Assembly: GCF_001618685.1 (NCBI RefSeq)
Contig: NZ_CP014342.1
Coordinates: forward strand, 1,302,001 to 1,366,000
Source: Geobacillus subterraneus
GTDB lineage: Bacteria; Bacillota; Bacilli; Bacillales; Anoxybacillaceae
Reading direction: 5' to 3'
Length of the DNA: 64,000 nt
The notes under the pieces are model-generated. The model was given only the letters and a program-made list of their open reading frames with translations, was not told the origin of the DNA and made no database searches. Positions within the stretch are counted from its first letter, which is position 1. Every line of letters starts with the position of its first letter. This document shows, one piece after another, positions 9,058 to 35,469 of the stretch. The position numbers were made by a program, and so were the translations under genes.

Positions 9058-9136
9058 CTTTCACCCCTGAAAATGATATACATTTAATATCAATTATGAT
9101 ATGCTATGTATATAATAACACAAAAGGGGGTGAAAG
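9058..9136. promoter_or_regulatory. Divergent control region rhh/tnpB with mirrored ribosome sites
   Basis: CTTTCACCCC (9058-9067) and GGGGTGAAAG (9127-9136) form a perfect 10-bp inverted repeat containing both Shine-Dalgarno sequences. Between them is AT-rich sequence with repeated ATGATAT and TATATAAT-like strings, suitable for back-to-back promoters and RHH operator half-sites. The role is inferred. Confidence 0.5.
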
Positions 9137-9138
9137 TC

Positions 9139-10263
9139 ATGATGGTCAATAAAGCATACAAATTCCGTATCTACCCAAACAAAGAGCAAGAAGCGTTGAT
9201 GACGAAAACATTCGGTTGCTCGCGTTTTGTATTCAACTATTTTTTAGCGAAATGGGAGGATGCTTACAAAGAAACAGGGAAAGGGCTATCATATAATGCC
9301 TGTTCTTCTCAATTAACACAACTAAAAAAAGAATTAACTTGGTTAAACGAAGTGGATAGTGTTGCTCTACAATCCTCATTGAAAAACCTTGCCGATGCGT
9401 ATGCTCGCTTTTTGAAAAAGCAAAACGACAAACCACGCTTTAAATCGAAAAAGAATAAGGTGCAATCCTACACAACGAAATATACAAACGGAAATATTGC
9501 TATTGATGGAAACAAAATCAAACTTCCGAAACTTGGGTTTGTTCGTTTGGCAAAAAGCCGTGAGGTAGAAGGCCGCATTTTGTCGGCTACGGTGAGACGA
9601 AATCCGAGCGGGAAATACGTTGTGTCCATTTTAGTTGAAGCAGAAGTACAAGAGTTGCCTAAAACGGGTTCAGCCGTTGGCATCGATGTTGGTTTAAAGG
9701 ACTTTGCCGTTCTTTCCGATGGAACAAAGTATGAAAATCTGAAATGGTTTCGTCAGTTAGAAAAGAAACTAGCGAAAGCACAACGCATTCTTTCCAGACG
9801 AAAAAAAGGCGGTTCGAATTGGAATAAGCAACGAATAAAAGTTGCACGATTGCATGAAAAAATCACAAACGCACGACACGATTATCTACACAAAATCTCC
9901 ACCGAGATTGTCAAAAACCACGACATCATCGGTATGGAAGATTTGTCAGTAGGTAATATGCTAAAAAATCATAACCTTGCAAAAGCCATTCAAGAAGTAT
10001 CATGGTCAATGTTTAAAACCATGATCGTATACAAAGCCAAATGGTACGGGAAACAAGTCGTCACCGTAGCGAAAACCTTTCCGTCCAGCCAGCTTTGTTC
10101 GTGCTGTGGCTATCAAAATAAAGACGTGAAACATCTCGCTTTGCGCGAATGGGAATGCCCCGTGTGCCGTACCCATCATGATCGAGATGTGAACGCAAGT
10201 ATGAATATCAAAAACGAAGCCGTCAGGCTTCTAACCGCAGGAACTGTGGGGATCGCCTACTAA
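9139..10263 (+). CDS. tnpB: TnpB RNA-guided nuclease (IS200/IS605 family), apparently intact
   Basis: TnpB proteins are RuvC-type nucleases guided by an RNA from the element's right end; they cut the empty donor site and so favour retention of the element. The 374-residue product begins with the usual [17 protein letters not shown] domain. All three RuvC acids are present: D183 in [10 protein letters not shown]267 in [10 protein letters not shown] and D350 in [12 protein letters not shown]. The zinc ribbon (CSCCG...CPVC) is complete. Start 9139 (MMVNK) is seven bases after GGGGGTG; ATG 9142 is an alternative. There is no sign of decay, so it could be active. It is more AT-rich than neighbouring chromosomal genes. 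Confidence 0.93.
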
Positions 10264-23423: not shown

Positions 23424-23630
23424 ATGCCGGCACGTAAGGAGGTACGCTGTTCATTTTGCGGTTCAGCGAATGTAGCGCCGTTATCGATGTTTGGAACCGC
23501 TCAGCTTGTGTCGCAATATTATTGCCATCAATGCAGGAGTGTGTTTGAGCGGGTGAGATGGAGAAACGATGCCAATGAGGAAGGGGAGACCATTGATGAC
23601 GATCAAGAAGCATTATCCGCTGTTTATTAA
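23424..23630 (+). CDS. Stand-alone zinc-ribbon domain of PaaD
   Basis: A 68-residue protein whose first 45 residues, VRCSFCGSANVAPLSMFGTA onward to YYCHQCRSVFERVRW, align by eye with the C-terminal zinc ribbon of full-length PaaD (recalled pattern CPRC, then LISEFGSTACKALYRC, then CREPF). The four zinc cysteines (two CxxC pairs) are present. PaaD helps mature or assemble the phenylacetyl-CoA epoxygenase; its other half, the DUF59 domain, is a separate gene at 29295-29615 ending where the ribbon would normally begin. This is the first gene of the operon and overlaps the aldehyde dehydrogenase start by 35 bases. The acidic tail has no counterpart known to me. Confidence 0.75.
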   Translation: MPARKEVRCSFCGSANVAPLSMFGTAQLVSQYYCHQCRSVFERVRWRNDANEEGETIDDDQEALSAVY

Positions 23631-25077
23631 CGGCCAGTATGTTGAAAGCAGCAACGGTGAAGTGTTTGAAACGGTCAATCCGGCGACAGAAGAAGTGATT
23701 GCGACGGTCGCCAAGGCGACAAAAGCGGATGTGGACCGTGCTGTCGAAGCGGCGCGTACGGCATTTGAGTCGGGCAAATGGCCGAAAATGACGGCGGCAA
23801 AACGCGCGCGTTTGCTCAATCAAATCGCCAACCTCATGAGAGAGCGGTTCAACGATTTAGTGTATGCCGAAGTGCTAAATAGCGGCAAAACGGTCGATGC
23901 GGCGAAAGGGCAAATTATGCAGGCAATTGAGGATTTTGAATTTTACGCGGCCGCGGCGATTACGCTGCAGGGAGATACAAACCAAGTGCCGAACGGATTT
24001 TTCAACTATACGGTAAAAGAGCCGGTCGGCGTATGCGGCCAAATCATCCCGTGGAACTATCCGCTGATGATGGCAGCTTGGAAGATAGCTCCGGCATTGG
24101 CAGCGGGATGTACGGTCGTGTTAAAGCCGGCAAGCTACACGCCGATTACCGCTTATATGTTGGCGGAAATTTGCCAAGAGGCCGGGGTTCCCGATGGCGT
24201 CGTTAACGTGATTACAGGAAGCGGTTCCGAAATCGGCCCATATATGACCGAACATCCGGGGATTGATAAGGTGGCTTTCACCGGGGAGACAGAAACCGGC
24301 AAAGACATTATGCGGCGCGCCTCTGGGACGTTGAAACGGGTGACGCTCGAACTTGGCGGAAAATCGCCAAATATCGTGTTTGATGATTGCGATATAGAAG
24401 CGGCTGTCAACGGTTCACTTTACGGTATTTTTTACAATACAGGGCAGTCGTGTGAGGCACGCTCACGGCTGTTTGTCCACGAAGCCATTTACGACGAATT
24501 TATGGAGAAATTTATTGAAAAAGCTTCCCGCATCCGCGTCGGCAACCCGTTTGAAAAAGGGGTACATATGGGAGCGGTCATTTCGCGAAGCCATCAGCAA
24601 GTGATCGACGGCTATGTGAAGCTGGCGGTTGAGGAAGGCGGCGAAGTGCTGTACGGCGGAAAAGTTCCGGAAGGCGACGAGTTTGCGAAAGGCTACTGGT
24701 ATATGCCGACGGTGATCGGAAACGTCACAAACGATATGCGCGTGGCGCAGGAAGAAATTTTCGGGCCGGTCGTCGTCGTCATGAAGTTTCGCGATGAGGA
24801 AGACGTCATCCGGCAGGCGAACGATACGATTTTCGGCTTAGGGTCGGCCGTATGGACGAAAGACCACGGAAGAGCCCATCGCGTCGCTTCGCGCATCCGG
24901 GCAGGGATTGTCATGATCAACTCGCCGATTTCCGCCTTCCCGGGCACGCCGTTTGGCGGGTACAAGCAGTCAGGATTTGGCCGTGAGCTGGCACTGGAAA
25001 CGTTGAATTTGTACACCGAAACGAAGAGCGTCGTCTCTTATATCGGCAGCAAGCCGTTGAACCTGTTTGGCATTTAA
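23596..25077 (+). CDS. NAD(P)-dependent aldehyde dehydrogenase
   Basis: A 493-residue ALDH superfamily enzyme oxidising an aldehyde to the acid. Seen are the cofactor segment IIPWNYPLMMAAWKIAPALA, VLKPASYTP, FTGETETGK, the catalytic glutamate in LELGGKSPN and the catalytic cysteine in NTGQSCEARSR, and the C-terminal FPGTPFGGYKQSGFGRE. Start MTIKKHY is seven bases after AAGGGGAG, inside the preceding ribbon gene. In PaaZ the ring-opening product is oxidised by a fused ALDH-hydratase; this unfused enzyme could take the semialdehyde step of the aryl-CoA route, as BoxD does in the benzoyl-CoA pathway. The substrate is an inference from context. Confidence 0.88.
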   Translation: MTIKKHYPLFINGQYVESSNGEVFETVNPATEEVIATVAKATKADVDRAVEAARTAFESGKWPKMTAAKRARLLNQIANLMRERFNDLVYAEVLNSGKTVDAAKGQIMQAIEDFEFYAAAAITLQGDTNQVPNGFFNYTVKEPVGVCGQIIPWNYPLMMAAWKIAPALAAGCTVVLKPASYTPITAYMLAEICQEAGVPDGVVNVITGSGSEIGPYMTEHPGIDKVAFTGETETGKDIMRRASGTLKRVTLELGGKSPNIVFDDCDIEAAVNGSLYGIFYNTGQSCEARSRLFVHEAIYDEFMEKFIEKASRIRVGNPFEKGVHMGAVISRSHQQVIDGYVKLAVEEGGEVLYGGKVPEGDEFAKGYWYMPTVIGNVTNDMRVAQEEIFGPVVVVMKFRDEEDVIRQANDTIFGLGSAVWTKDHGRAHRVASRIRAGIVMINSPISAFPGTPFGGYKQSGFGRELALETLNLYTETKSVVSYIGSKPLNLFGI

Positions 25078-25160
25078 CAAGGCAGATTGATGCGCTCGGA
25101 TCACCATAGCTGGGATAAGCGGTATTTAAAACAAACATATCATATTATGGAGGGATGAAG

Positions 25161-25961
25161 ATGGCAAATGCGGTAACGGTAGAGAAAAAATATTTGACGG
25201 TTGTGAAAGAAGAAGGGATTGCCGAGATTCATTTGCACATTAACAAGTCGAACTCGTACGATCTGGAATTTTACAAAGAATTCAACGCGGCGATTGATGA
25301 CATCCGCTTCGATCCAGACATTAAAGTGGTCATCATCATGAGCGATGTGCCGAAGTTTTTCTCGGCGGGGGCGGACATTAACTTTTTGCGTTCGGCCGAC
25401 CCGCGGTTCAAAACGCAATTTTGCTTGTTCTGCAATGAGACGCTTGATAAAATCGCCCGCTCGCCGCAAGTGTATATCGCTTGTTTAGAAGGGCATACAG
25501 TCGGCGGGGGCTTGGAGATGGCGCTCGCGTGCGACTTGCGGTTTATGGGGGATGAAGCAGGAAAAATCGGGCTGCCGGAAGTGACGCTCGGGGTGTTGGC
25601 TGGCACAGGCGGGACGCAGCGGCTGGCGCGGTTGGTCGGCTACTCGCGGGCGCTGGATATGAACATTACGGGAGAAACGATCACGCCGCAAGAGGCGCTT
25701 GACATCGGGCTGGTGAACCGGGTGTTCCCGCAGGCGGAAACGAGAGAGCGGACGCGGGAGTATGCGCGCAAGCTCGTTAACAGCGCGACGTATGCGATTT
25801 CAAACATCAAGCTGTCGATCATGAACGGCAAAGAAATGCCGCTTAATGTGGCGATCCGCTATGAAGGCGAGCTGCAAAACTTGCTGTTCCGTTCGGAAGA
25901 CGCCAAAGAAGGGTTGAGCGCATTTTTGGAAAAACGCCAGCCAAATTGGAAAGGGATTTAA
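25161..25961 (+). CDS. Enoyl-CoA hydratase/isomerase (crotonase family), copy 1
   Basis: A 266-residue crotonase-fold enzyme. The oxyanion-hole segments are FFSAGADINFL and GHTVGGGLEMALACD; both catalytic glutamates of the hydratase type are present (GGGLEMALA and GLPEVTLGVLAGTGGTQRL). Start 25161 is seven bases after GGAGG; the ATG two codons earlier is too close. From YLTVV to the end the protein is identical to copy 2 at 30646-31443, only the first ~10 residues differ. Third gene of the ribbon-ALDH operon and followed by a terminator. Likely handles an unsaturated dicarboxyl-CoA intermediate (PaaF/PaaG-like), not proven. Confidence 0.88.
   Translation: MANAVTVEKKYLTVVKEEGIAEIHLHINKSNSYDLEFYKEFNAAIDDIRFDPDIKVVIIMSDVPKFFSAGADINFLRSADPRFKTQFCLFCNETLDKIARSPQVYIACLEGHTVGGGLEMALACDLRFMGDEAGKIGLPEVTLGVLAGTGGTQRLARLVGYSRALDMNITGETITPQEALDIGLVNRVFPQAETRERTREYARKLVNSATYAISNIKLSIMNGKEMPLNVAIRYEGELQNLLFRSEDAKEGLSAFLEKRQPNWKGI
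25191..25961 (+). repeat. 771-bp direct repeat, copy 1
   Basis: Matches 30673-31443 in the same orientation with about nine differences that I can count, all silent and nearly all in the first 190 bases; the rest is essentially identical. The pair encloses paaX, the MBL gene and paaADBC. Confidence 0.92.
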
Positions 25962-25974
25962 CACTTTGTTCATG

Positions 25975-26004
25975 CATATCGGCCGTTTCGGCCGATATGT
26001 TTTT
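25975..26004 (+). terminator. Rho-independent terminator before paaX
   Basis: A perfect 10-bp stem CATATCGGCC/GGCCGATATG (25975-25999) followed by TTTTT. Confidence 0.92.
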
Positions 26005-26040
26005 ATGTAAAAACGATCATTTTATGTAAAAATAATCATT
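26001..26040 (+). promoter_or_regulatory. Tandem 19-bp repeats upstream of paaX
   Basis: Two adjacent copies of TTTTATGTAAAAAnnATCA (26001-26019 and 26020-26038) differ only at the two bases marked n (CG/TA). Each contains TTATGT, the core shared with the two catabolic promoters, and an inverse ACATAAT lies at 26070-26076. Candidate autoregulatory sites for PaaX. Confidence 0.5.
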
Positions 26041-26110
26041 CTAAGATTGAAAAAGAGAGGGGAAATGTAACATAATAAAAGAAAAATCTGAAAAAGACAG
26101 GTGTGTTGCA

Positions 26111-26986
26111 ATGAAGCCAAGGGCACTTATGTTTACGCTATTCGGGGAATATATTCAACATTATGGGAATGAAGTGTGGATCGGAAGTTTGATCCAGATG
26201 ATGTCTCACTTCGGCATTTCCGAGTCGTCCATTCGCGGGGCGGCGCTAAGGATGGTGCAGCAAGAATTTTTTGAAGTGCGGAAAATCGGCAATAACAGCT
26301 ATTACTCGCTGACGCCGAAAGGGAAGCGGACGATGATGGACGGATTCACCCGCGTCTATTCGCTTCGGAACTATAAATGGGATGGCCGCTGGCGCGTGTT
26401 GACATATTCTGTTCCGGAAGAAAAGCGAGAGCTGCGCAGCCAGATCCGCAAAGAATTAAGTTTAATGGGATTTGGCCTTATTTCTCACGGAACGTGGGCG
26501 AGCCCGAACCCGATTGAACCGCAAGTCATGGAATGGATTAAAGATTATCATTTAGAGCCGTATGTGATTTTATTTACGGCGGATTCCATCGTGTCGCACA
26601 GCAACGAGCAAATCATCGAGCGCGGTTGGGATTTTGCCTATATCGCCAAAGAATATGACAAGTTTATTGAAACGTACGAGCAAAAATATGAGGAGTTCCA
26701 AAAGCGGGCTTGGAACAATGAGCTGACCGACCGCGAATGTTTTATGGAACGGACAAAGCTCGTGCATGAATACCGGAGCTTCTTCTTTATTGACCCAGGG
26801 TTTCCGCACGATTTATTGCCGCACGACTGGAGTGGAACGAGAGCGCGGGAGTTGTTTTTCAATGTCCATCAGCTTCTGGCTATTCCTGCCATTCGATACT
26901 TTGAAACGCTGTTTGAGCCCGCTCCGGACCGTGAATCGGCGTTCAACCGCGATAAGGCGATCAACCCGTTTATGGAGATGATTTAG
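26111..26986 (+). CDS. paaX: PaaX-family transcriptional repressor
   Basis: A GntR-related winged-helix regulator that in characterised bacteria represses phenylacetate genes and is released by phenylacetyl-CoA. The 291-residue protein has the full PaaX layout: N-terminal DNA-binding domain (MFTLFGEYIQHYGNEVWIGS, SESSIRGAALRMVQ), the central domain with WDGRWRVLTYSVPEEKRELR and LMGFGLISHGTWASPNP, and the C-terminal effector region (FFFIDPGFPHDLLPHDW). The start has only a weak ribosome site. It lies between the two catabolic operons and after tandem repeats that may be its own operator. The true effector may be benzoyl-CoA or another aryl-CoA given the ligase encoded here. Confidence 0.93.
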   Translation: MKPRALMFTLFGEYIQHYGNEVWIGSLIQMMSHFGISESSIRGAALRMVQQEFFEVRKIGNNSYYSLTPKGKRTMMDGFTRVYSLRNYKWDGRWRVLTYSVPEEKRELRSQIRKELSLMGFGLISHGTWASPNPIEPQVMEWIKDYHLEPYVILFTADSIVSHSNEQIIERGWDFAYIAKEYDKFIETYEQKYEEFQKRAWNNELTDRECFMERTKLVHEYRSFFFIDPGFPHDLLPHDWSGTRARELFFNVHQLLAIPAIRYFETLFEPAPDRESAFNRDKAINPFMEMI

Positions 26987-27077
26987 CGGTCGGACTGAAA
27001 ACATCGGCGGATTCGTTTTTCGATTGGATGTTGCATAGAGACAAAGAGATCACGATGATAGAGGGGAGAGGAAACAG

Positions 27078-28052
27078 ATGCTACATAAAGACATTGAAGC
27101 CGTGGGGGACGGGATTTATCGCGTCCCGATTCCCGTCCCGTTTCCGATGAAGTATGTGTATTGTTACGTATGCCAAGAGGCGGACGGGTGGAGCTTGGTT
27201 GACGTTGGATTTCGTTGCCCTGAGGCCATGCGCGCTTGGGAAGCGGCCTTCCGGCAATTAGGAATCAAGCCGCGGCACGTTCGCGCCATTTATATCACCC
27301 ACTTCCATCCCGATCATTTTGGCCTTGCCGGTTGGATGCAGCAACAGACGGAAGCGCCGATATGGATCAGCGAACCGGATCAGGCGATGGCCGAACGGGT
27401 GTGGGGGGAAGAGAGTTCCCAAGCGAGTGAAGTTGCTGCACTGTTTCGCCGCCATGGCGTTCCGGATGAACTTGCGGCTGAAATTGAAGAGAACATGTGG
27501 AAGTTATCATTGCGCGTCAGCCCGTTTCCGGTGTTAACGGTTTTAGATCACCGCGAGATTGTGCTTGGGCAGCGTCGGTGGACCGTCATCCCGGTTCCAG
27601 GGCATAGTGACGGGCTGGTCAGTTTTTATCAGCCGGAGTCACGCCAACTGTTAGTATCGGATCATGTGCTTGACCGCATTACTCCGAATATTAGTGTATG
27701 GCCGGGCGCCCATCCGAATCCGTTAGAGCAATATTTCGCCTCTTTGCGTAAAGTCGAGGAGCTTGATGTCGATGTTGCCTTGCCTGCCCACGGGGCGGTG
27801 ATCCGCCAGTTTCGCGAGCGGATCGGTGATATTTTCCGCCATCATGAACAACGGTTGCAAAAGATGAAAGCGCTGACAGAGAAGGGGCGCACCGCCTATG
27901 AAGTGGCCCATCTCGTGTTTGGTCATAAGCCGCTGACCGCGCACCAATGGCGGTTTGCGGTGGCGGAAACACTAGCGCATTTAGAATATTTGCGCTCTAT
28001 CGGTCAAGTGCAAACAGAGGAACGTGACAATCTGATCGTGTATGGGTCATGA
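27078..28052 (+). CDS. Metallo-beta-lactamase-fold hydrolase
   Basis: A 324-residue MBL-fold protein with the metal-binding motif THFHPDHFG (about residues 73-81), later ligands in PVPGHSDGLVSFY and LVSDHVLD, and PAHGAVI near the C-terminus, followed by a helical tail that may be a small winged-helix-like domain. Such hydrolases act on thioesters, lactones or phosphoesters. Its position between paaX and paaA suggests a thioesterase or lactonase role in relieving dead-end ring-opening products, an inference only. GAGGGGAGAGG precedes the ATG, and a strong terminator follows. Confidence 0.82.
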   Translation: MLHKDIEAVGDGIYRVPIPVPFPMKYVYCYVCQEADGWSLVDVGFRCPEAMRAWEAAFRQLGIKPRHVRAIYITHFHPDHFGLAGWMQQQTEAPIWISEPDQAMAERVWGEESSQASEVAALFRRHGVPDELAAEIEENMWKLSLRVSPFPVLTVLDHREIVLGQRRWTVIPVPGHSDGLVSFYQPESRQLLVSDHVLDRITPNISVWPGAHPNPLEQYFASLRKVEELDVDVALPAHGAVIRQFRERIGDIFRHHEQRLQKMKALTEKGRTAYEVAHLVFGHKPLTAHQWRFAVAETLAHLEYLRSIGQVQTEERDNLIVYGS

Positions 28053-28057
28053 CGAGC

Positions 28058-28090
28058 AGCCAGCTGTGCAGACAGCTAGGCTTTTTTTTT
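28058..28090 (+). terminator. Rho-independent terminator after MBL gene
   Basis: AGCCAGCTGT (28058-28067) pairs with ACAGCTAGGCT with one bulged base, then a run of nine T. Confidence 0.85.
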
Positions 28091-28280
28091 GTCTCGTTAA
28101 ACAATAAGGGATTACGTTGTGCAGCTTCCTGATTGAATGAAAAATATACGGACGGAAAACAAACATTGAACGTTACAAAAGACGATCTGCAAGGAATGGC
28201 CAAAGCGAGGAAAGGAGATATTTAGAACATCTAAGGAAATAAAAACAAAAAATAATTTTCAGATTTTTTCTATTTTTAAG

Positions 28281-28328
28281 TTGACAACGAACTTTATAGT
28301 GTATTAACATTATGTATAGAATACGATA
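28281..28328 (+). promoter_or_regulatory. Promoter and candidate PaaX site of paaADBC
   Basis: TTGACA (28281-28286) with a TAACAT -10 (28305-28310, 18-base spacer) precedes paaA. ATTATGT-N7-ACGATA (28309-28328) begins at the end of the -10, exactly as at the 23.3-kb promoter. The match of sequence, spacing and location is seen; regulator identity is inferred. Confidence 0.6.
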
Positions 28329-28359
28329 GTCAAAAAAACGTAATAAAGAGGGTGGAAAC

Positions 28360-29295
28360 ATGGATCAAGCGACGTTGCTGAAAGAAAAAGTTCAAAACGG
28401 ATTTATCGTCGAAGGGATCGAGGATATGAATGAGGAGTATTTGGCAGCATTGAAACAGACATTGACGATCGTCGGCGACACCGAACTGTTAAGCGTTCCG
28501 CCGCTATTAACCGTGTACGATCAGGCGCCGACGCTCAACAGCAAAATTACGGCGTTGGCCATTATGCAGGACGAAATCGGCCATGCCCATATCGCGTACC
28601 GGCTGCTGAAAGATTTAGGCGAAGACGTCGATCAGCTGCTTTACGAGCGGGAAGCAAACCGCTGGAAAAACCCGTACGCTTTCGATTTTGAACTGTCGAA
28701 CTGGATTGAACTAGGTGTCTTTAACGCCTTTTTTGACCGGGCGGGCTACACGCTCCTTGGTGACGCGTTTGAACATACGTCCTACGGGCCGTGGAAGCGG
28801 GCGCTCGTGAAAGTCGACAAAGAAGAGCTGTTCCATCTCAGAAACGGGGAAATCATTATGAGAACGGCCATGCAAGATCCAAACTTACGTGAAGAAGTAC
28901 AAAAAGCCGTCGATTGGATGTTTTTAATGGCACTCGAGTTTTTCGGGGTGGAAGACCGGCTGAAAAGCCGCTCGGCGCAACTTGAGTACCGCCTAAAAGG
29001 ACGGTCGAACGATGAACTGCGGCAAAAATGGCTGTCAACGGCCGTTCCGTTCTGCGAATCGATCGGTGTTAAAGTCCCTGCCCATTACGATGAAGAACAG
29101 CAAAAATACGTGCTCGATGTGCCGTTCCCGTGCAAGTTTGATCCGGTGAATAAGAAATGGCTGTTCGACCAGCCGGATACGTGGGATAACGTCATCAAAC
29201 GGTTTAAACAGCGGGGTCCGAAAAATAAAGAATTCGTTGCCCGGATTCAAAAAGGAGCCAAAGAGCTTGAGCAATTGCGAAAGGAAGCGGTGTGA
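28360..29295 (+). CDS. paaA: Phenylacetyl-CoA epoxygenase-like alpha subunit (PaaA family)
   Basis: This is the catalytic subunit of a bacterial multicomponent diiron monooxygenase that turns an aryl-CoA into its ring epoxide. At 311 residues it matches PaaA length. Two ExxH-type metal-binding segments are visible, MQDEIGHAHIAYRLLKDLG (about residue 70) and KEELFHLRNGEIIMRT (about residue 152), in a helical bundle. A good promoter and the site GAGGGTGG precede it. First of four overlapping genes A-D-B-C. With a benzoate-CoA ligase downstream and no phenylacetate-CoA ligase, the substrate could be benzoyl-CoA or a related thioester; the sequence alone cannot settle this. Confidence 0.88.
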   Translation: MDQATLLKEKVQNGFIVEGIEDMNEEYLAALKQTLTIVGDTELLSVPPLLTVYDQAPTLNSKITALAIMQDEIGHAHIAYRLLKDLGEDVDQLLYEREANRWKNPYAFDFELSNWIELGVFNAFFDRAGYTLLGDAFEHTSYGPWKRALVKVDKEELFHLRNGEIIMRTAMQDPNLREEVQKAVDWMFLMALEFFGVEDRLKSRSAQLEYRLKGRSNDELRQKWLSTAVPFCESIGVKVPAHYDEEQQKYVLDVPFPCKFDPVNKKWLFDQPDTWDNVIKRFKQRGPKNKEFVARIQKGAKELEQLRKEAV

Positions 29296-29615
29296 TGGGC
29301 AAGCAGGATACCGAAAAATATTGGCAGGCGCTGAAAGAAGTGATGGATCCAGAATTTCCGATCAGCGTCGTCGATATGGGGTTGATTTACGAAATTGAAA
29401 AAAACGACGATGAATTGCATGTCACCATGACGTATACGGCGGTATCGTGCGCCTGTATGGAATGGATCGAGCAAGATATCCGCGACCGTTTGCTTAAGGA
29501 AGAAGGCATTCGCGATGTGCATATTCACGTCGTCTGGGATCCGCCGTGGACGGTTGAGCGGATCAGCCCGGAAGGACGCGAAAAATTAAAATATTGGGGG
29601 GTGAGCTCAACATGA
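29295..29615 (+). CDS. paaD: PaaD DUF59 (MIP18-like) domain protein without zinc ribbon
   Basis: A 106-residue protein consisting only of the DUF59 domain. It has VMDPEFPISVVDMGLIYEI, TYTAVSCACMEWIEQDIRD and DPPWTVERISPEGREKLKYWGV, the last matching the PaaD stretch that normally leads into its C-terminal zinc ribbon. The protein stops right there. The missing ribbon is encoded separately at 23424-23630. DUF59 proteins work in metal-cofactor delivery; PaaD is needed for the epoxygenase. The start overlaps the paaA stop (TGATG), and the stop overlaps paaB (ATGA). Full-length PaaD is about 165 residues, so this is a domain split and not a random truncation. Confidence 0.87.
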   Translation: MGKQDTEKYWQALKEVMDPEFPISVVDMGLIYEIEKNDDELHVTMTYTAVSCACMEWIEQDIRDRLLKEEGIRDVHIHVVWDPPWTVERISPEGREKLKYWGVSST

Positions 29616-29827
29616 CGGCGACCCAACAACGAAAAACGTTTGATATTTTCGCCCGCGTAAAGCGGGGCGACCAATTGGCCCATATCGGCACAGTGGAAGC
29701 GGAAAATGAAGAGCTGGCGAAAGTGTATGCTTCCTATACGTACGATGAAGAGGACTGGGCGGAAATGGTCGTTGTCGACCGCAGCGAGCTCGTTTGGGTG
29801 AGAAAACCGAAATGGCTGTTTGCCTAG
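29612..29827 (+). CDS. paaB: Epoxygenase small subunit PaaB-like
   Basis: A 71-residue protein resembling PaaB, the small subunit that bridges the epoxygenase complex. Seen is FDIFARVKRGDQLAHIGTVE followed by YASYTYDEEDWAEMVVVDRS, close to the family pattern (EVFVRGKQGLSHRHVGSL in the recalled E. coli protein). It is about 20 residues shorter than that protein, lacking the C-terminal tail. Start MTATQQR was chosen from GGGGGGTGAG and the ATGA overlap with paaD. Third gene of the operon. Confidence 0.85.
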   Translation: MTATQQRKTFDIFARVKRGDQLAHIGTVEAENEELAKVYASYTYDEEDWAEMVVVDRSELVWVRKPKWLFA

Positions 29828-29844
29828 AAAGGGGTGGAGGATCA

Positions 29845-30489
29845 ATGGAACCGATGCAGTCTAGTGTACATTCGCTCGTCGAACTGCTTGAAACGATCGC
29901 TGACAATAAATACGTGCTTGGCGACCGCCTTGTGGAAGTCGGGGTCAGCGGTCCAAATTTGGAAGCGACGCTGGCCGCGATCGCGATGGCCCAAGGAGAA
30001 TTAGGGCACGCGCGCTTGCTGTACAACTGGTGTTTTGATTTACGCGGGTTGAAAGGAAAAAAACCGGAAGTTTACGGACAATCCGGAAAAGCGATGGCAA
30101 GCGCCGTCAACGTTCATAACTGGATCACGCTCATCGCTGCGCTATATACCGTGAACACGGCCATTGATGCGGTCTTGCAATCGGCGCTGCAAGCGAACCA
30201 TCCGGCAGTTGTTTCTAAAATTCAAAAGCTCGTCCGTGAACAGCAAGACCATATCGTTTACGCGAAAAACTGGGCGCAGCAGCTTATCCATGATCAAGGT
30301 GCCGTTCCGCACCGTTTCCGCCAAGCGTTGAATGCTGCGGCGAACGAGGCAGCGGTTTGGTTAAAGAATGTCGAGGACAAGAAAGAGCTGCAGGAGGAAG
30401 GGTATTTGCCGAAAGGAGTCCAACTTGTTGAACATTTGCAACAGGAATTGAAAGCGGTTGCCGCTGAACCATTTGTTCAGTTGAAATAA
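29845..30489 (+). CDS. paaC: Epoxygenase structural subunit PaaC-like
   Basis: A 214-residue helical ferritin-like protein, the structural partner of PaaA. The segment IAMAQGELGHARLLYNWC retains an ExxH-like motif, while the second half (REQQDHIVYAKNW) lacks a clear diiron set, which fits a mainly structural subunit. Start at 29845 follows AAAGGGGTGGAGG; an upstream in-frame ATG lies inside paaB. Shorter than E. coli PaaC (about 248). The operon has no PaaE-type reductase after it; electrons must come from a reductase encoded elsewhere. Confidence 0.85.
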   Translation: MEPMQSSVHSLVELLETIADNKYVLGDRLVEVGVSGPNLEATLAAIAMAQGELGHARLLYNWCFDLRGLKGKKPEVYGQSGKAMASAVNVHNWITLIAALYTVNTAIDAVLQSALQANHPAVVSKIQKLVREQQDHIVYAKNWAQQLIHDQGAVPHRFRQALNAAANEAAVWLKNVEDKKELQEEGYLPKGVQLVEHLQQELKAVAAEPFVQLK

Positions 30490-30645
30490 GAAAGGCACAA
30501 CAGGAGGTGAGAAAAAACAAGCACAAAACGAACGGTGTTCTTCATGTTTTCAGAAATACAAAGACGGAAATGAACTTTCAAAAACGGGTGATTCAAACGT
30601 TGCCTGCATCACATCAAAAAATTCATAAGGAAGGAGAATACAAGG

Positions 30646-31443
30646 ATGGTAGCTGTAGAAACGAAAAAACAATACTTGACGGTCGTCAAAGAAGAGGGGA
30701 TTGCCGAGATTCATTTGCACATTAATAAATCGAACTCGTACGATCTGGAATTTTACAAAGAATTCAATGCGGCGATTGATGACATCCGCTTCGATCCAGA
30801 CATTAAAGTGGTCATCATCATGAGCGATGTGCCGAAGTTTTTCTCGGCGGGGGCGGACATCAACTTTTTGCGTTCGGCCGACCCGCGGTTCAAAACGCAA
30901 TTTTGCTTGTTCTGCAATGAGACGCTTGATAAAATCGCCCGCTCGCCGCAAGTGTATATCGCTTGTTTAGAAGGGCATACAGTCGGCGGGGGCTTGGAGA
31001 TGGCGCTCGCGTGCGACTTGCGGTTTATGGGGGATGAAGCAGGAAAAATCGGGCTGCCGGAAGTGACGCTCGGGGTGCTGGCTGGCACAGGCGGGACGCA
31101 GCGGCTGGCGCGGTTGGTCGGCTACTCGCGGGCGCTGGATATGAACATTACGGGAGAAACGATCACGCCGCAAGAGGCGCTTGACATCGGGCTGGTGAAC
31201 CGGGTGTTCCCGCAGGCGGAAACGAGAGAGCGGACGCGGGAGTATGCGCGCAAGCTCGTTAACAGCGCGACGTATGCGATTTCAAACATCAAGCTGTCGA
31301 TCATGAACGGCAAAGAAATGCCGCTTAATGTGGCGATCCGCTATGAAGGCGAGCTGCAAAACTTGCTGTTCCGTTCGGAAGACGCCAAAGAAGGGTTGAG
31401 CGCATTTTTGGAAAAACGCCAGCCAAATTGGAAAGGGATTTAA
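30646..31443 (+). CDS. Enoyl-CoA hydratase/isomerase, copy 2
   Basis: A 265-residue crotonase-fold protein identical to copy 1 from about residue 10 to the end, with the same oxyanion-hole and glutamate motifs (FFSAGADINFL, GGGLEMALACD, GLPEVTLGVLAGTGGTQRL). The first residues MVAVETKKQ differ from copy 1. Preceded by AAGGAAGGAG. It follows paaC at 156 bases and precedes a hairpin and the CoA ligase. Having the same enzyme in both operons suggests dosage or independent control; near-perfect DNA identity points to recent duplication or ongoing gene conversion. Confidence 0.88.
   Translation: MVAVETKKQYLTVVKEEGIAEIHLHINKSNSYDLEFYKEFNAAIDDIRFDPDIKVVIIMSDVPKFFSAGADINFLRSADPRFKTQFCLFCNETLDKIARSPQVYIACLEGHTVGGGLEMALACDLRFMGDEAGKIGLPEVTLGVLAGTGGTQRLARLVGYSRALDMNITGETITPQEALDIGLVNRVFPQAETRERTREYARKLVNSATYAISNIKLSIMNGKEMPLNVAIRYEGELQNLLFRSEDAKEGLSAFLEKRQPNWKGI
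30673..31443 (+). repeat. 771-bp direct repeat, copy 2
   Basis: Partner of 25191-25961, same orientation, with about nine silent differences clustered near the 5' end. The sharp change from diverged 5' flank to identity is typical of a conversion tract or a fresh duplication. Confidence 0.92.
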
Positions 31444-31456
31444 GCGCTACGGTTAT

Positions 31457-31502
31457 GAAGCCCTTGAAATGGGAAGTCGGCTCATCCATTTCCAAGGGCT
31501 TC
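31457..31502 (+). terminator. Long hairpin between ECH copy 2 and CoA ligase
   Basis: GAAGCCCTTG-AAATGG (31457-31472) pairs with CCATTTCCAAGGGCTTC (31486-31502), one bulge. The following U-run is poor (CTTATG), so it may be an intercistronic processing or partial termination signal. Confidence 0.5.
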
Positions 31503-31555
31503 CTTATGCACACTCATCAAGCAATCTAATTTTCATAGAAATGGGATGGTGAGCG

Positions 31556-33145
31556 ATGGAATTGCGCGGGTTCGGAAGGCTGTACAATGCGGCGGGGCTG
31601 TTTATTGATCATAACGTTCACAGTGGATTAGGCGATAAAACGGCGATTTATTACCGCGATGAGCAAATTTCGTACCGGACATTGCAAGAAAAAGTGAACC
31701 AAACTGGCAATATGCTGCGGCAGCTTGGCTATAAGCTCGAAGACCGCATCGTTATGGTTTGCCATGACACGCCCGAGTTTATTTACACGTTTTTCGGCGC
31801 CATTAAAATCGGGGCGGTGCCGATCCCGGTCAATACGATGATGCAGCCGTCGGATTATGAATACTTTTTAAACAACAGCCGGGCGAAAGGGTTGGTCATT
31901 CATGAAGACTTGTGGGAGCGCCTTGAGCCGGCACGGAAACGGTTTGCTTTTTTGGAGCACGTCATTGTCATCTGTGAAAACGCTAACAAAACTTTAGAGG
32001 GGACACTCTCGTTCCATCGATTGCTTCAACGCGCTGATAAAGAGCTCACAGCGGCTCCCACAAGTAAGGACGATGCTGCGTTCTGGCTGTTCAGTTCAGG
32101 AAGCACCGGGGAGCCGAAAGGAGTCATCCATTTGCAGCACGATATGGAGTATGCATTAAACACTTATGCCAGACAAGTGCTGGAAATGAATGAACATGAC
32201 CGTTGCCTCTCTGCATCCAAACTGTATTTTGCCTATGGTCTTGGCGGAGGCATGTATTTTCCACTGGGTGTTGGCGCTTCGACCATACTCATCAAAGAAC
32301 GTCCGTTGCCGGAAACGATGTTCCAGGCGATTGAAACGTACAAACCGACGATCTTTTTCGGCGTGCCGACGTTGTATGGCGCCATGATTGATTACGTCGA
32401 AAAAACAGGCCGGCGCGTTGATGTCAGTTCATTGCGCGTTTGTGTGTCTGCCGGTGAAGCGTTGCCGCCGTCTTTTTACTATAAATGGAAAAAGTTATTT
32501 GGCGTTGACATTTTAGACGGCATCGGCTCGACCGAAGCGTTGCACATTTTTATTTCCAACCGCATTGGCGATGTCAAACCGGGAAGTTCCGGAAAAGCGG
32601 TGCCAGGTTACGACGTGAAGATTATCGATGGGCAAGGAAAGGAACTGCCGCCGAATGAAGTCGGGGACTTGATTATTCGCGGCGACTCGATCGCTCACGG
32701 ATATTGGAATCTTCATGAGCAAAACAAACAAAAATTCGTCGGTGAATGGCTGTATATTGGCGATAAGTATTACTGTGATGAGGAAGGGTACTACTGGTAT
32801 TGCGGACGTTCCGACGATATGCTGAAAGTCGGCGGCATTTGGGTTTCCCCGATTGAAATTGAAAACTGCCTGCTGCAGCATGAGGATGTGTTGGAAGTCG
32901 CGGTCGTCGGTGTGGAAAATGAAAAAGGCTTGACCGTTCCAAAGGCGTTTGTCGTTCTGAAAGACGGAGTCACACCATCAGCAAATAAGCAAGAAGAACT
33001 GAAACAGTTTACGAAGCAACAGCTGGCCCACTATAAACACCCGCGCATTATCGAATTTATTGACGAACTTCCGAAAACAGCTACAGGAAAAATCCAGCGT
33101 TTTAAATTGCGGCAATTGTTGGAGCATCAGAGCATCAATCAATGA
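31556..33145 (+). CDS. Benzoate-CoA ligase family enzyme
   Basis: An AMP-forming ligase activating an aromatic acid to its CoA thioester. The 529-residue protein has the adenylation P-loop LFSSGSTGEPKGVIHLQHDM, SKLYFAYGLGGGMYFPLGVG, the signature DGIGSTEALHIFISN, GDKYYCDEEGYYWYCGRSDD and the C-terminal lysine in LPKTATGKIQR. The YFAYGLG and DGIGSTE-LHIF motifs mark the benzoate-CoA ligase family as I know it, not PaaK, which is shorter and lacks these. It would supply the substrate of the Paa-type epoxygenase. Benzoate, hydroxybenzoate and related acids are all possible substrates. Confidence 0.88.
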   Translation: MELRGFGRLYNAAGLFIDHNVHSGLGDKTAIYYRDEQISYRTLQEKVNQTGNMLRQLGYKLEDRIVMVCHDTPEFIYTFFGAIKIGAVPIPVNTMMQPSDYEYFLNNSRAKGLVIHEDLWERLEPARKRFAFLEHVIVICENANKTLEGTLSFHRLLQRADKELTAAPTSKDDAAFWLFSSGSTGEPKGVIHLQHDMEYALNTYARQVLEMNEHDRCLSASKLYFAYGLGGGMYFPLGVGASTILIKERPLPETMFQAIETYKPTIFFGVPTLYGAMIDYVEKTGRRVDVSSLRVCVSAGEALPPSFYYKWKKLFGVDILDGIGSTEALHIFISNRIGDVKPGSSGKAVPGYDVKIIDGQGKELPPNEVGDLIIRGDSIAHGYWNLHEQNKQKFVGEWLYIGDKYYCDEEGYYWYCGRSDDMLKVGGIWVSPIEIENCLLQHEDVLEVAVVGVENEKGLTVPKAFVVLKDGVTPSANKQEELKQFTKQQLAHYKHPRIIEFIDELPKTATGKIQRFKLRQLLEHQSINQ

Positions 33146-33165
33146 GGTGAGAGGAACGATCAGCC

Positions 33166-33615
33166 ATGAAACGGAATCAATTTCAAGTCCGCGTAAATTT
33201 TGGTGATACTGATGCGGCCGGCATCGTCTATTATCCGAATTACTTTAAATGGTTTGATATTGCCGGGCACCAATTTTTTCGCAGCATCGGACTGCCGCCG
33301 GCGAAACTGATGAACGAACAAAGCATCATTCTCCCGCTGCTTGACGTCGGCTGTACGTTTGAGCACCCGCTGTATTACGATGACATTATTACGATTAAAA
33401 CGGCGGTCGAAGAAGTGAACCGCAAAACGATCAAGCTGCGCCATGAAGTGTTCCGCGGAGAAGTACGAACCGGCCATGGCTTTGAACTTAGAGGCTGGGT
33501 GAAAGAGGAGAACGGGCGTATTTTTGCGGTTCCCATTCCAGACGATGTTCGGCAGCTGCTTGAAGAAGATGGCATAGGGGAGTGCGCCTACATCAATCCG
33601 TTGCTCAATGCTTGA
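33166..33615 (+). CDS. 4-hydroxybenzoyl-CoA thioesterase (4HBT) family protein
   Basis: A 149-residue hot-dog-fold acyl-CoA thioesterase. The N-terminal active-site loop FGDTDAAGIVYYPNYFKWFD, with its aspartate, is the classic 4-hydroxybenzoyl-CoA thioesterase motif; the rest (LLDVGCTFEHPLYYDDIITI and so on) is normal for the family. It starts 20 bases after the ligase gene, so the two are co-transcribed. A ligase and a thioesterase side by side suggest CoA recycling when ring oxidation stalls, as PaaI does in phenylacetate catabolism. That role is inferred. Confidence 0.9.
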   Translation: MKRNQFQVRVNFGDTDAAGIVYYPNYFKWFDIAGHQFFRSIGLPPAKLMNEQSIILPLLDVGCTFEHPLYYDDIITIKTAVEEVNRKTIKLRHEVFRGEVRTGHGFELRGWVKEENGRIFAVPIPDDVRQLLEEDGIGECAYINPLLNA

Positions 33616-33656: not shown

Positions 33657-33690
33657 ATCGTTGCGATAGGCTGTGAAAGGGGGAAGTTCT

Positions 33691-35469
33691 TTGATTCGAA
33701 CAGCGAAGCGAACCGAACTGATTGAAGTAGCGCAAGGGCGCCGCCCGGCCGATATCGTCATTCAAGGAGGAACGGTCGCTAACGTCTATTCCGGTGAATT
33801 TTTGCGCCAAAACGTTGCTATTTATCAAGATGCGATTGCCTATGTTGGGGAAAATGAGGTCGCGGTTGATGAGCATACGGTTGTGATTGACGCAGAAGGG
33901 ATGTATGTGTCCCCTGGGTTCATTGAGCCGCATGCCCATCCGTGGGTGCTTTACAATCCCGTCAGCGTGACCGCCAAAGTGCTGCCGCTCGGCACGACAA
34001 CAACGGTCAATGACAACTTATTTTTTTATTTGCATTTTGGCGCCGACGGATTTCGACAGCTGATCGAAGATTTGCGGGCTTTGCCCGGCCATTTCTTTTG
34101 GCTTGTCCGCCTCGTATCACAGGCCGATTTCCCCGGCGAGCGCGACTGGTTTCATCCGCAATGCATCCAAGAACTGCTGGCGATGGACGATGTCGTTGGG
34201 ACGGCGGAAGTGACACGATGGCCGCTGCTGTATCAAGGCGATCCGTTTTTACTTGAAACGATTGAAGCGGCAAAACGCGCCGGAAAAGTCGTTGACGGGC
34301 ATACGGCCGGCTGTTCGTATGAAAAACTGAACAGCATTGCCGCAAGCGGCGTCAGCGCCTGTCATGAAGCCATCACGGCTGAGGAAGCGCTCCATCGGCT
34401 GCGGCTTGGCATGTGGACGACGCTCCGCCATAGCTCGCTCCGCCCAGATTTTCCCGAAATTATCCGCTTAATTACCGAGAAAAACGTGAGCACGCAGCGG
34501 ATTACGATGACCGTAGACGGTCCGCACCCGGGCTTTATTGAGCGGGAAGGGTTTGTCGACGGATTGGTCCGGAAGGCGGTGGAGCTTGGCGTACCGCCGA
34601 TGACCGCCTTGCAAATGGCGACGATCAATGCGGCGACATATTTGCGGTTGGACGATGAAATCGGCGGCATCGCCCCGGGGAAACTGGCGGATGTCATTTT
34701 GCTTCCTGATCTTGTCACTTTCAAGCCATCGCTTGTGATCGCCAAAGGCCGCATCGTCGCCCGCGACGGCGAGCTGCTTGCGCCGTTGCCTGAGATCGAC
34801 TGGAGTCGATACGTATCGAAAAAACCGTTTCTGTTCGCGAAAGAACGGCTTGATGATGAGCGTTTATACCGCTATCCGCACCCGAAGCCGGATCAGCCGG
34901 TGCCGGTCGCGTATTTTAAAAGCAATGTCATTACCCAACGGAAAGAGGTGGCTCTTCCGTCTGTTGACGGCTATGCGGATCTTTCCCATCATCGAGGGTT
35001 GTTGTATGCCGCGCTCATCGCCCGCAACGGGCAATGGGTGGCTAAAGCCATTTTGGAGCGGTTTGCCGTCGATATTGATGGCATGGCGTCCACCTATAAC
35101 ACCACGACCGAGCTACTTGTCATCGGCAAACGTCCGGAAGCGATGGCGGCGGCAGCGAAGCGCGTGCATGAAATGGGCGGCGGGATTGTTGTCATCGATA
35201 GCGGCCGACCGGTGGTGGAAATTCCGCTGCCGTTTACCGGCATGATGACAACCGACCATTCGTTTGACACGGCTGTCCGTTTCCATGATGAGTTGCTGGC
35301 CGCTCTTCAAGAGCGCGGATTTCCGTTCCATGATATTTTGTACACGCTGTTGTTTTTAACATGCGACTTTTTGCCAGGACTTCGCTTGATTCCGTACGGG
35401 TTGTACGATGTCAAACGGAACGAGATTTTGCTGCCGGCGGAAAAGATCGGGGAAAAAGTAGCGAAATAA
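33691..35469 (+). CDS. Adenine deaminase-like amidohydrolase (YerA type)
   Basis: A 592-residue metal-dependent amidohydrolase. The N-terminal composite domain (VIQGGTVANVYSG) is followed by the metal motif PGFIEPHAHPW, with later VDGHTAG, GVSACHEAI and MTVDGPHPGF, and IAPGKLADVILLPDL; the C-terminal part has GGGIVVIDSGRPVVEIPLP, typical of Ade proteins. True adenine deaminases have PGFIDAHLHIES here; the HAHPW form suggests the YerA-like branch whose substrate is uncertain. Start TTG at 33691 is seven bases after AAAGGGGGAAG; a GTG six codons earlier precedes that site. Function in purine salvage is likely but unproven. Confidence 0.82.
   Translation: MIRTAKRTELIEVAQGRRPADIVIQGGTVANVYSGEFLRQNVAIYQDAIAYVGENEVAVDEHTVVIDAEGMYVSPGFIEPHAHPWVLYNPVSVTAKVLPLGTTTTVNDNLFFYLHFGADGFRQLIEDLRALPGHFFWLVRLVSQADFPGERDWFHPQCIQELLAMDDVVGTAEVTRWPLLYQGDPFLLETIEAAKRAGKVVDGHTAGCSYEKLNSIAASGVSACHEAITAEEALHRLRLGMWTTLRHSSLRPDFPEIIRLITEKNVSTQRITMTVDGPHPGFIEREGFVDGLVRKAVELGVPPMTALQMATINAATYLRLDDEIGGIAPGKLADVILLPDLVTFKPSLVIAKGRIVARDGELLAPLPEIDWSRYVSKKPFLFAKERLDDERLYRYPHPKPDQPVPVAYFKSNVITQRKEVALPSVDGYADLSHHRGLLYAALIARNGQWVAKAILERFAVDIDGMASTYNTTTELLVIGKRPEAMAAAAKRVHEMGGGIVVIDSGRPVVEIPLPFTGMMTTDHSFDTAVRFHDELLAALQERGFPFHDILYTLLFLTCDFLPGLRLIPYGLYDVKRNEILLPAEKIGEKVAK

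Follow-up and report, generated by a model that had tools for sequence, protein, structure and literature searches.

We analyzed a 64-kb stretch of DNA from the thermophile Geobacillus subterraneus (the window, to which all positions refer) and the whole single-contig genome of 3.47 Mb by means of open reading frames and profile searches. The window contains a cluster of forward-strand genes for a divergent Paa-type oxygenase, in which the subunit genes have the order A-D-B-C and the zinc ribbon of PaaD is detached. The cluster begins with this zinc ribbon (23424–23630, 68 aa; PF23451 Zn_ribbon_PaaD, 42.8 bits, cut-off 27), an aldehyde dehydrogenase (ALDH; 23569–25077; PF00171, 615 bits), a crotonase related to the solved structure 2PPY (25155–25961; 563.6 bits), and a PaaX-type repressor (26111–26986), which has three PaaX Pfam domains above cut-off and scores 240 bits on TIGR02277, under the cut-off of 264.6. 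These are followed by an MBL-fold hydrolase (27078–28052; PF00753, 99 bits), whose role as a lactonase or thioesterase is a guess, the divergent PaaA (28360–29295; PF05138, 211 bits), the DUF59/MIP18 half of PaaD (29292–29615; PF01883, 57 bits, cut-off 23.5; NF041868, 97 bits, under the cut-off of 180), a short PaaB-like subunit of 71 aa (29612–29827; PF06243, a weak 18.5 bits, under the cut-off of 27), and a divergent PaaC as the structural subunit (29845–30489, 214 aa when read from this start; PF05138, 68 bits, cut-off 28.5). The PaaC frame is open, with zero internal stops; the stops counted in the genome search reflect a match that overruns the gene end. Downstream lie a second crotonase copy (30646–31443) with 99.2% DNA identity to the first across the last 750 bases, a benzoate-CoA ligase family protein (31556–33145; TIGR02262, 621.6 bits, cut-off 375), and a 4HBT acyl-CoA thioesterase of the YbgC/FadM family (33166–33615; TIGR00051, 72.1 bits, cut-off 68.7). 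COG824 is the YbgC type of thioesterase. The initial annotation had named these genes, including the split PaaD, and the reading frames and profiles bear it out, although weakly for PaaB; the MBL-fold hydrolase was missing from its gene list.

The cluster is conserved. Across 54 Bacillota loci, the PaaB-like ORF is present in all, the MBL-fold hydrolase in 36, and the ALDH in 32, as are zinc-ribbon-like ORFs, of which only the window's copy was profile-scanned. Genes for ALDH, crotonase, dehydrogenase, and thiolase recur beside the module, and no reductase gene was seen among the annotated recurrent neighbors. The two catalytic glutamates of the crotonase are kept in 72/72 homologues of at least 70% identity. 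Another conserved neighbor (25 of the 54 loci) is an adenine-deaminase-like amidohydrolase (33673–35469; PF13382 and PF01979), which fits nowhere in the pathway proposed below; an annotated adenine deaminase is also found near the ligase in Thermus.

PaaK, PaaE, BoxA, and BoxB had been noted as absent from the window, and their absence extends to the entire 3.47-Mb genome. The best PaaK match reached 27.5 bits (cut-off 646), the best PaaE match 106.8 bits within a 415-aa ORF (cut-off 420.8), and the one BoxA match, at 54.8 bits, lay within a 613-aa ORF. BoxB (TIGR03225) was found in none of 101 Bacilli genomes, this one included, at E 1e-10, and the genome search also found no BenA. The genome has only two PF05138 genes, the PaaA and PaaC of the cluster. 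The initial annotation had named a PaaK, PaaE, and PaaZ set elsewhere in the genome as a refuter of its own reading; the search for PaaK and PaaE returned nothing over cut-off, and no second PaaA or PaaC was found. The missing PaaE and the unfused ALDH are no evidence for an unusual pathway, because the ordinary Bacilli paa operons examined (L085, L087, and L088) show both.

A PaaH-type 3-hydroxyacyl-CoA dehydrogenase (5018–5899) and a PaaJ/PcaF 3-oxoadipyl-CoA thiolase (6045–7253; TIGR02430, 599 bits, cut-off 597) are encoded on the forward strand at 5.0–7.3 kb, as first noted. The dehydrogenase gene is 91% and 89% identical to paaH of two same-genus canonical operons, and the thiolase gene is 93% identical to canonical paaJ. 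With dN/dS values of 0.042 and 0.049 for the former and 0.059 and 0.068 for the latter, both are retained under purifying selection. In blastn comparisons, the junction at 4458–5017, where a same-genus relative has paaK-A-B-C-D-F-G-ALDH, retains no more than short stretches that match the sequence upstream of paaK (e.g. 4725–4766). The two genes look like the remnant end of a lost ordinary paa (phenylacetate) operon, and the stretch from paaK through ALDH was apparently lost from the genome, which kept the divergent cluster.

Judged by its sequence, the window PaaA is a member of a separate clade and no ordinary PaaA. Clade members share 65–95% identity among Bacilli and 29–33% with ordinary PaaA; the window protein is 31% identical to E. 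coli PaaA, scores 136.2 bits on TIGR02156, under the equivalog cut-off of 280, and 20 bits on the BoxB model TIGR03225 (cut-off 499). Its best fold match is of the PaaA type (TM 0.85), and the six diiron ligands are kept in 81/81 clade sequences. The lysine bridge of canonical PaaA is described as Lys68-Glu49-Glu72-Asp126 (PMC4498308). Lys68 and Glu49 are present in all 40 canonical PaaA and in none of the 81 clade sequences, while T41, S45, and D40, which correspond to BoxB Thr119, Ser123, and Asp118, are present in 81/81 clade sequences and 0/40 canonical PaaA. The loss of the bridge and the gain of the Thr/Ser pair point to a question of substrate specificity. The window PaaA has GDTExxS and DRxG motifs, the former holding the Thr and Ser that orient benzoyl-CoA in BoxB, and two full-length BoxB likewise read GDTEPASV and DRDG. 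The window PaaA has matches to two BoxB (47 and 44 bits), whereas the three canonical PaaA listed in the same comparison have no BoxB match. According to the literature, Gln116, Thr119, Ser123, Phe193, Phe206, and Thr210 place benzoyl-CoA in BoxB, and four of the six are found in the window PaaA (T41, S45, F108, and F121). However, Phe108 also occurs in canonical PaaA and proves nothing on BoxB likeness, and Phe121 (BoxB Phe206) is replaced by Ala in Thermus, haloarchaeal, and other-phyla members; the BoxB paper is inconsistent in naming this residue, giving both Phe203 and Phe206, and Phe203 would correspond to Leu118. Gln116, which hydrogen-bonds benzoyl-CoA, is changed to Val38, and Thr210 to Phe125. 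The second shell of the window PaaA is partly BoxB-like.

The ligase resembles benzoate ligases and not PaaK, although TIGR02262 describes a subfamily and is not specific for one substrate. Among its relatives of solved structure, an anthranilate-CoA ligase ranks first (484 bits), and benzoate-CoA ligases follow (448 and 414 bits). At the informative columns, where the two benzoate ligases agree and the anthranilate ligase differs, the window enzyme agrees with the benzoate pair in 25, including A226, Y227, L229, and L329 (T, F, T, and F in the anthranilate ligase), and with the anthranilate ligase in 14, including G426 and W429. These counts shift our confidence slightly from benzoyl-CoA as the substrate toward a substituted benzoate.

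Of 398 Bacilli genomes, 14 carry a PaaA of the window type, and a ligase with at least 50% identity to that of the window occurs in the same 14 (Fisher p 4e-26, not corrected for descent), no more than 5 kb from PaaA in 11 of them. Twelve of the 14 carriers also have an ordinary PaaA (canonical-scoring PF05138 genes) and PaaK (590–657 bits, 3 of the 12 exceeding the curated 646), so that phenylacetate is already served there; PaaK was not found in the other two, one of which is the window genome. Similar modules with a ligase of the TIGR02262 family are carried by one Thermus plasmid and four haloarchaeal plasmids, whose ligases score 370–392 bits (cut-off 375; two of the four are just under). 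Among the loci of other phyla, only 3/27 show a ligase of at least 43% within the fetched stretch.

We consider it probable that the cluster serves the aerobic, CoA-dependent breakdown of benzoate, with a PaaABC(D) epoxidase of a second and distinct type as its oxygenase; Paa architecture with Box chemistry is our best reading. The initial proposal that a Paa-type enzyme may epoxidize benzoyl-CoA gains support from the ligase co-occurrence, the separate PaaK and PaaA in 12/14 carriers, the partly BoxB-like second shell, the lack of BoxB and BenA in this genome, and the similar modules in Thermus and haloarchaea. In such a pathway, the ligase would convert benzoate to benzoyl-CoA, and the PaaA/PaaB/PaaC complex, matured by the two-piece PaaD and fed with electrons by a reductase, would form 2,3-epoxybenzoyl-CoA. 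The duplicated two-glutamate crotonase, a proposed BoxC-like hydrolase/hydratase, might open the ring with release of formate, as BoxC does, and the ALDH is a candidate for the BoxD-like role of oxidizing the ring-opened semialdehyde to 3,4-dehydroadipyl-CoA. Hydration, PaaH, and the 3-oxoadipyl-CoA thiolase would then yield succinyl-CoA and acetyl-CoA. The thioesterase and the MBL-fold hydrolase could serve CoA rescue or the opening of a lactone formed as a by-product, with PaaX as the proposed repressor of the gene set.

The conserved crotonase glutamates count for this pathway, as does a BenE-type gene (benzoate transporter family; one member profile-scanned) near 7 of the 54 Bacillota loci. 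Counted against it were the changed Gln116 and Thr210, the Phe121 replacements, the rank of the anthranilate-CoA ligase, the few ligases in other phyla, and a cluster with no BoxA, BoxB, or BoxC family member and no annotated recurrent reductase. The substrate could instead be a substituted benzoyl-CoA (2-aminobenzoyl-, salicylyl-, or hydroxybenzoyl-CoA), which would accommodate the loss of Gln116, the amidohydrolase neighbor, the first rank of the anthranilate-CoA ligase, and the 14 anthranilate-side ligase columns. We regard this as unlikely given the 25 benzoate-side columns, the BenE-type genes, and the different route reported for anthranilate in G. thermodenitrificans NG80-2, which proceeds via 3-hydroxyanthranilate with a FAD-dependent hydroxylase (PMC4539516).

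It seems very improbable that the cluster is an ordinary phenylacetate pathway in which PaaA has diverged and an unusual ligase stands in for PaaK. The PaaX, PaaB, and PaaD relatives, the PaaA-like fold, and a genome without PaaK or another PaaA would fit it, but most carriers have the canonical PaaA and PaaK as well, the lysine bridge is missing throughout the clade, the ligase is unlike PaaK, and the window genome apparently lost paaK onward while it kept the cluster. Slightly less credible still is hydroxylation of benzoyl-CoA followed by release of hydroxybenzoate by the thioesterase, a gentisate-type route without ring opening as a CoA ester. Besides the thioesterase gene, older reports speak for it, in which gentisate was reportedly proposed in Bacillus stearothermophilus. 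However, the recurrent ALDH, crotonase, dehydrogenase, and thiolase genes and the identity of the window thiolase fit ring opening on CoA, and the thioesterase is explicable as CoA rescue, the explanation offered in PMC6449761 for one near a box operon.

Aerobic CoA-dependent breakdown of benzoate in B. stearothermophilus was reportedly described by Zaar et al. in 2001, a route that to our knowledge has no assigned genes. The clusters described here are strong candidates, would supply its genes if confirmed, and bring the question within reach of direct tests in laboratory thermophiles. More broadly, we lean towards the view that CoA-dependent ring epoxidases include a third family, one that crosses domains (Bacillota, Thermus, and haloarchaea) and comprises benzoyl-CoA epoxidases built on the multi-subunit Paa scaffold with substrate-facing residues shared with BoxB. 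If true, this family would supply the missing genes behind aerobic benzoyl-CoA metabolism in B. stearothermophilus, and would show that either one active-site solution arose twice or BoxB and PaaA descend from a common ancestor that used benzoyl-CoA. In a 2026 survey (PMC13186573), PaaA and PaaC are put forward as robust markers for phenylacetate potential; the two clade carriers without detected PaaK bear on such a reading of genomes.

Compared with known systems, the window cluster shares with the phenylacetate paa system (PaaABCE; TIGR02156) the multi-subunit A/B/C epoxidase with its diiron ligands and fold, a PaaD-type maturation factor, and PaaX, and with ordinary Bacilli paa operons the unfused ALDH without a visible PaaE. 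Unlike paa, it has no PaaK and no Lys68/Glu49 bridge, its subunit order is not A-B-C-D, and PaaD is in two genes. The box pathway (BoxABC; TIGR03225) likewise has a benzoate-CoA ligase family protein, an unfused ALDH, a Liv-type transporter gene (in 20/54 Bacillota loci, one profile-scanned), and the BoxB motifs seen in the window PaaA. A thioesterase gene is a further likeness, COG824 being noted for one box strain in PMC6449761. BoxB is, however, a monomeric protein of ∼475 aa, BoxA has no counterpart here, PaaX takes the place of BoxR, and BoxC has two domains whereas the window crotonases have one; like PaaF and BoxC, these have the two glutamates, which PaaG does not both keep. The haloarchaeal Paa subunits (NF041868 and NF041869) share the split PaaD, with the DUF59 part and a small zinc ribbon on separate proteins. 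Those models are named for phenylacetyl-CoA, while the four haloarchaeal loci nearest the window cluster carry the TIGR02262-family ligases.

Open reading frames (ORFs) and profile searches located all the cluster genes named in the initial annotation at or near the positions it gave. The 5' half of the cluster, on the forward strand, encodes a PaaD zinc ribbon (starting at 23424; 42.8 bits to PF23451), an aldehyde dehydrogenase (ALDH), a first crotonase, PaaX, an MBL hydrolase and PaaA (28360-29295). The 3' half, on the same strand, encodes the DUF59 half of PaaD, a PaaB-like protein, PaaC, a second crotonase, a benzoate-CoA ligase family protein (31556-33145), a 4HBT thioesterase and an adenine-deaminase-like protein. 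The weakest gene call is the PaaB-like protein, with 18.5 bits against a cut-off of 27. The window is part of a single-contig host genome of 3.47 Mb. Between the window PaaA and its counterpart in Geobacillus thermodenitrificans DSM 465, identity is 99%.

We searched 398 Bacilli genomes for relatives of PaaA and the ligase. The PaaA/PaaC family (PF05138) is present in 154 genomes. A divergent PaaA family that includes the window protein (the new clade) is present in 14 genomes from 13 genera, the 13 besides the host having proteins 65-95% identical to the window PaaA; the remaining listed matches were 29-33% identical. Four genomes (G015, G072, G081 and G320) had weaker PF05138 matches without a relative of the window PaaA and lay outside the detailed comparison. 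The window ligase, with the three best candidates per genome scored at E 1e-90, was found in 15 genomes, the same 14 and one more. Besides the window's own, ligase identity was 51-83% in the PaaA-carrying genomes and 44% in the fifteenth, which lacks a new-clade PaaA. Ligase and PaaA genes lie less than 5 kb apart in 11 of the 14 genomes, 22 kb apart in one, and on different contigs of a draft in two. Fisher's test for the co-occurrence gave 4e-26, with the 44% match counted as absent and shared descent uncorrected. PaaK (E 1e-100, four candidates scored per genome) is present in 12 of the 14 carriers, with scores of 590-657 bits (3/12 above the curated cut-off), and missing in the host genome and in G175. 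These 12 carriers have four or six PF05138 genes each, the best of them of canonical score. Hence, the new system and the canonical phenylacetate-type system coexist in carriers, which argues for different substrates. In the PaaA phylogeny that had been suggested for placing the enzyme, built from 53 selected sequences, canonical PaaA proteins cohere (100/99) and are set apart from the new clade; the position of BoxB was not used because its branch is very long.

To compare neighbourhoods, we used the clade alignment to scan genomes of bacteria and archaea and took the best 80 of 378 relatives: 53 from Bacillota and 27 unclassified or recorded under other phyla. Adding the window gave 54 Bacillota loci; the other 27 were covered only partly. 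An ORF similar to the window PaaB-like protein is present in all 54. Homologues of the crotonase were found in 49, of the ligase and PaaX in 45 each, of the MBL hydrolase and thioesterase in 36 each, of the ALDH in 32, HADH in 26, the adenine-deaminase-like protein in 25 and the thiolase in 24. Of the nine Bacillota loci without the ligase, five span 5-11 kb; the other four are longer (L103 and L116, 20.9 kb; L125, 18.0 kb; L134, 17.8 kb). The contig of L103 equals in length the one on which G285 carries its ligase at a distance of 22 kb. A ligase of at least 43% identity was found in 3 of the 27 loci of other phyla, within the stretch compared. Bacillota loci also contain a Liv-type binding protein (20 loci, one protein scanned), a BenE-type gene (7 loci; the single representative scanned passes TIGR00843 with 210 bits, cut-off 203) and a CoA-transferase pair (6 and 7 loci). 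Of 43 long Bacillota loci, 28 hold at least two crotonase copies; the copies align end to end in 25 of these and share 97% DNA identity or more in 7 of the 25. The window copies (25155-25961 and 30646-31443) share 99.2% DNA identity over their last 750 bases, and the sequences suggest gene conversion between copies. The adenine-deaminase-like amidohydrolase (33673-35469), for which the proposed pathway offers no role, recurs near the ligase in 25 of the 54 loci and, by annotation, in Thermus; examples are L194:6743-8338 and L078, L079, L082 and L083.

Similar modules are present on plasmids, where 201 records matched and our figures come from the 60 listed. Among these are Thermus thermophilus plasmid pTF21b (54%) and, at 48-52%, plasmids of Haloarcula sp. 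JP-L23, Haloterrigena turkmenica, Halalkalicoccus jeotgali and Haladaptatus pallidirubidus. All five loci have the order A, DUF59, B, C plus a crotonase. Three of the four haloarchaeal loci encode a separate small protein above the PF23451 cut-off, and at the zinc-ribbon position of Haloterrigena two CxxC pairs are visible by eye in an unannotated frame. Two small ORFs of the Thermus locus had no Pfam match, one of them being PaaB-like by BLAST. The Thermus ligase, annotated as benzoate-CoA ligase family, is 48% identical to the window ligase, and the locus further carries a thiolase, an ALDH and an annotated adenine deaminase. All four haloarchaeal ligases match TIGR02262, the benzoate-CoA ligase subfamily model, better than any other model (380.7, 370.7, 370.3 and 392.2 bits; cut-off 375.25), and two of them fall just below the cut-off. 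A small 2Fe-2S protein, scanned in one case, adjoins the haloarchaeal modules (L189:9118-9402, 94 aa; L190:8775-9059; L191:8898-9179; L192:8091-8372) and could be their electron donor. A PaaA-like type without the DTExxS motif (38% identity) is encoded on an Agrobacterium plasmid (L193:7929-10248) near a coniferyl aldehyde dehydrogenase and a 917-aa AMP-binding protein, which, at E 1e-60, had no TIGR02262 match in the 25 families listed out of 26. This type perhaps acts on another aryl-CoA substrate.

The active sites of the two PaaA groups differ. We aligned 81 new-clade proteins, 40 canonical Bacilli PaaA, the E. coli protein and one BoxB segment; the canonical set is non-random, coming from 51 loci that were mostly best-scoring matches, with repeats removed. 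Residue roles follow section 7 of PMC4498308 for PaaA and PMC5489048 for BoxB. None of the 121 new-clade and canonical proteins lacks any of the six diiron ligands. The lysine-bridge residues Lys68 and Glu49 are present in 40/40 canonical and 0/81 new-clade proteins, while T41, S45 and D40 (BoxB Thr119, Ser123 and Asp118) are present in 81/81 new-clade and 0/40 canonical proteins, the latter having Ser, Gly and Val/Ile/Met. A DRxG motif after the Asp ligand is common to BoxB and the new clade (R127 in 80/81, G129 in 81/81), and all 40 canonical proteins have Gly and Ala at these two positions. Two full-length BoxB sequences read GDTEPASV and DRDG. BoxB Gln116 and Thr210 are not conserved, being Val38 and Phe125 in the window PaaA. 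Phe121 (BoxB Phe206) is present in all 54 Bacillota proteins and was demoted as a benzoyl marker, the 27 others and the Thermus and haloarchaeal members having Ala. The predicted window PaaA model (pLDDT 88.9) has PaaA 3pw8 as its best fold match (TM 0.85) and matches BoxB 3per more weakly (TM 0.61, rmsd 7.7). According to section 15 of PMC4498308, PaaA and BoxB refuse each other's substrate. The title of PDB entry 4ii4 is PaaA E49Q K68Q with benzoyl-CoA, so the lysine bridge has already been altered in a benzoyl-CoA study.

The closest solved relative of the window ligase is an anthranilate-CoA ligase. At columns where two benzoate ligases agree against this protein, the window ligase is benzoate-like at 25 and anthranilate-like at 14. 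Residues A226, Y227, H330 and I331 are invariant in 44 Bacillota ligases (at least 50% identity, more than 400 aa). The pattern STE[A/M]LHI is common to the window ligase family, BadA and a betaproteobacterial box-locus ligase, as well as to Thermus and the four haloarchaea (with T for S in the latter), and is absent from PaaK. Following section 18 of PMC13186573, Ala226 was weighed as a feature separating these ligases from PaaK but rejected, as the aligned PaaK also has Ala. The crotonases have two catalytic glutamates (72/72), as do PaaF and BoxC and unlike PaaG. They match BoxC with 92-93 bits, compared with 54-62 bits for canonical Bacilli crotonases that match it. Among E. coli proteins, PaaF matches them best (144 bits), and with 563.6 bits the solved structure 2PPY is very closely related.

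The absences of PaaK, PaaE, BoxA and BoxB noted earlier for the window hold for the whole host genome: the best matches were 27.5 bits for PaaK (cut-off 646) and 106.8 bits, in a 415-aa ORF, for PaaE (cut-off 420.8), BoxA gave just one match of 54.8 bits, inside a 613-aa ORF, and none of the 101 Bacilli genomes searched at E 1e-10, the host among them, had a BoxB match. The benzoate dioxygenase BenA had no match in the host genome, and the only PF05138 matches are the window PaaA and PaaC genes. Three MaoC (oxepin-hydrolase family) genes above the cut-off, all outside the cluster, carry no weight either way. The missing PaaE and unfused ALDH were dropped as a sign of a new pathway; the ordinary Bacilli paa operons examined share both features.

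The HADH (paaH, 5018-5899) and thiolase (paaJ, 6045-7253) genes, which the initial annotation had matched to the cluster, were rejected as members; they resemble the end of a canonical paa operon. In the same-genus genome G247, paaK-A-B-C-D-F-G-ALDH-paaH-paaJ comes after a match of window gene 2683-4455. The window has 560 bases between gene 2683-4455 and paaH, and these contain short matches to sequence upstream of paaK. The canonical operon appears likely to have been lost from the host genome, with paaH and paaJ left (4458-7253). Their dN/dS of 0.04-0.07 against two relatives supports continued use of both genes but does not prove it, because the loss could be of any age. Retention of just the steps common to a benzoyl-CoA route is what the proposed pathway predicts. 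Directly after the thiolase lies a gamma carbonic anhydrase/PaaY-like gene (7465-8004, reverse strand; NF050158 217 bits, cut-off 250; TIGR02287 PaaY 143 bits, cut-off 320), and a 385-aa ORF close by (9106-10263) resembles, by eye, a TnpB-type transposon protein.

If the route parallels the box pathway (PMC4498308 section 15; PMC6449761 section 10), the ligase step would be followed by epoxidation, hydrolytic ring opening with release of formate, aldehyde oxidation, and beta-oxidation to 3-oxoadipyl-CoA. No reductase gene was seen among recurrent cluster neighbours, and PaaE is missing from the examined canonical Bacilli paa operons too. Among the matches listed in openly licensed literature, titles and abstract openings contained no description of a Paa-type benzoyl-CoA epoxidase; subscription papers may have one.

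The gene order differs from that of the canonical paa operons compared. The order A-D-B-C is present in all 53 Bacillota loci with all four genes found and in 7 of 9 such loci of other phyla, whereas E. coli and the canonical Bacilli operons examined have A-B-C-D. According to section 10 of PMC6449761, box regulons also hold a lactonase, ABC transporters and, perhaps, in one strain, a COG824 thioesterase, resembling the MBL hydrolase (whose role is a guess), Liv genes and thioesterase of the cluster. By membership tests on the sequences, the predicted system is a member of neither the paa nor the box family, and we propose that it would carry out box-pathway chemistry with a paa-type enzyme.
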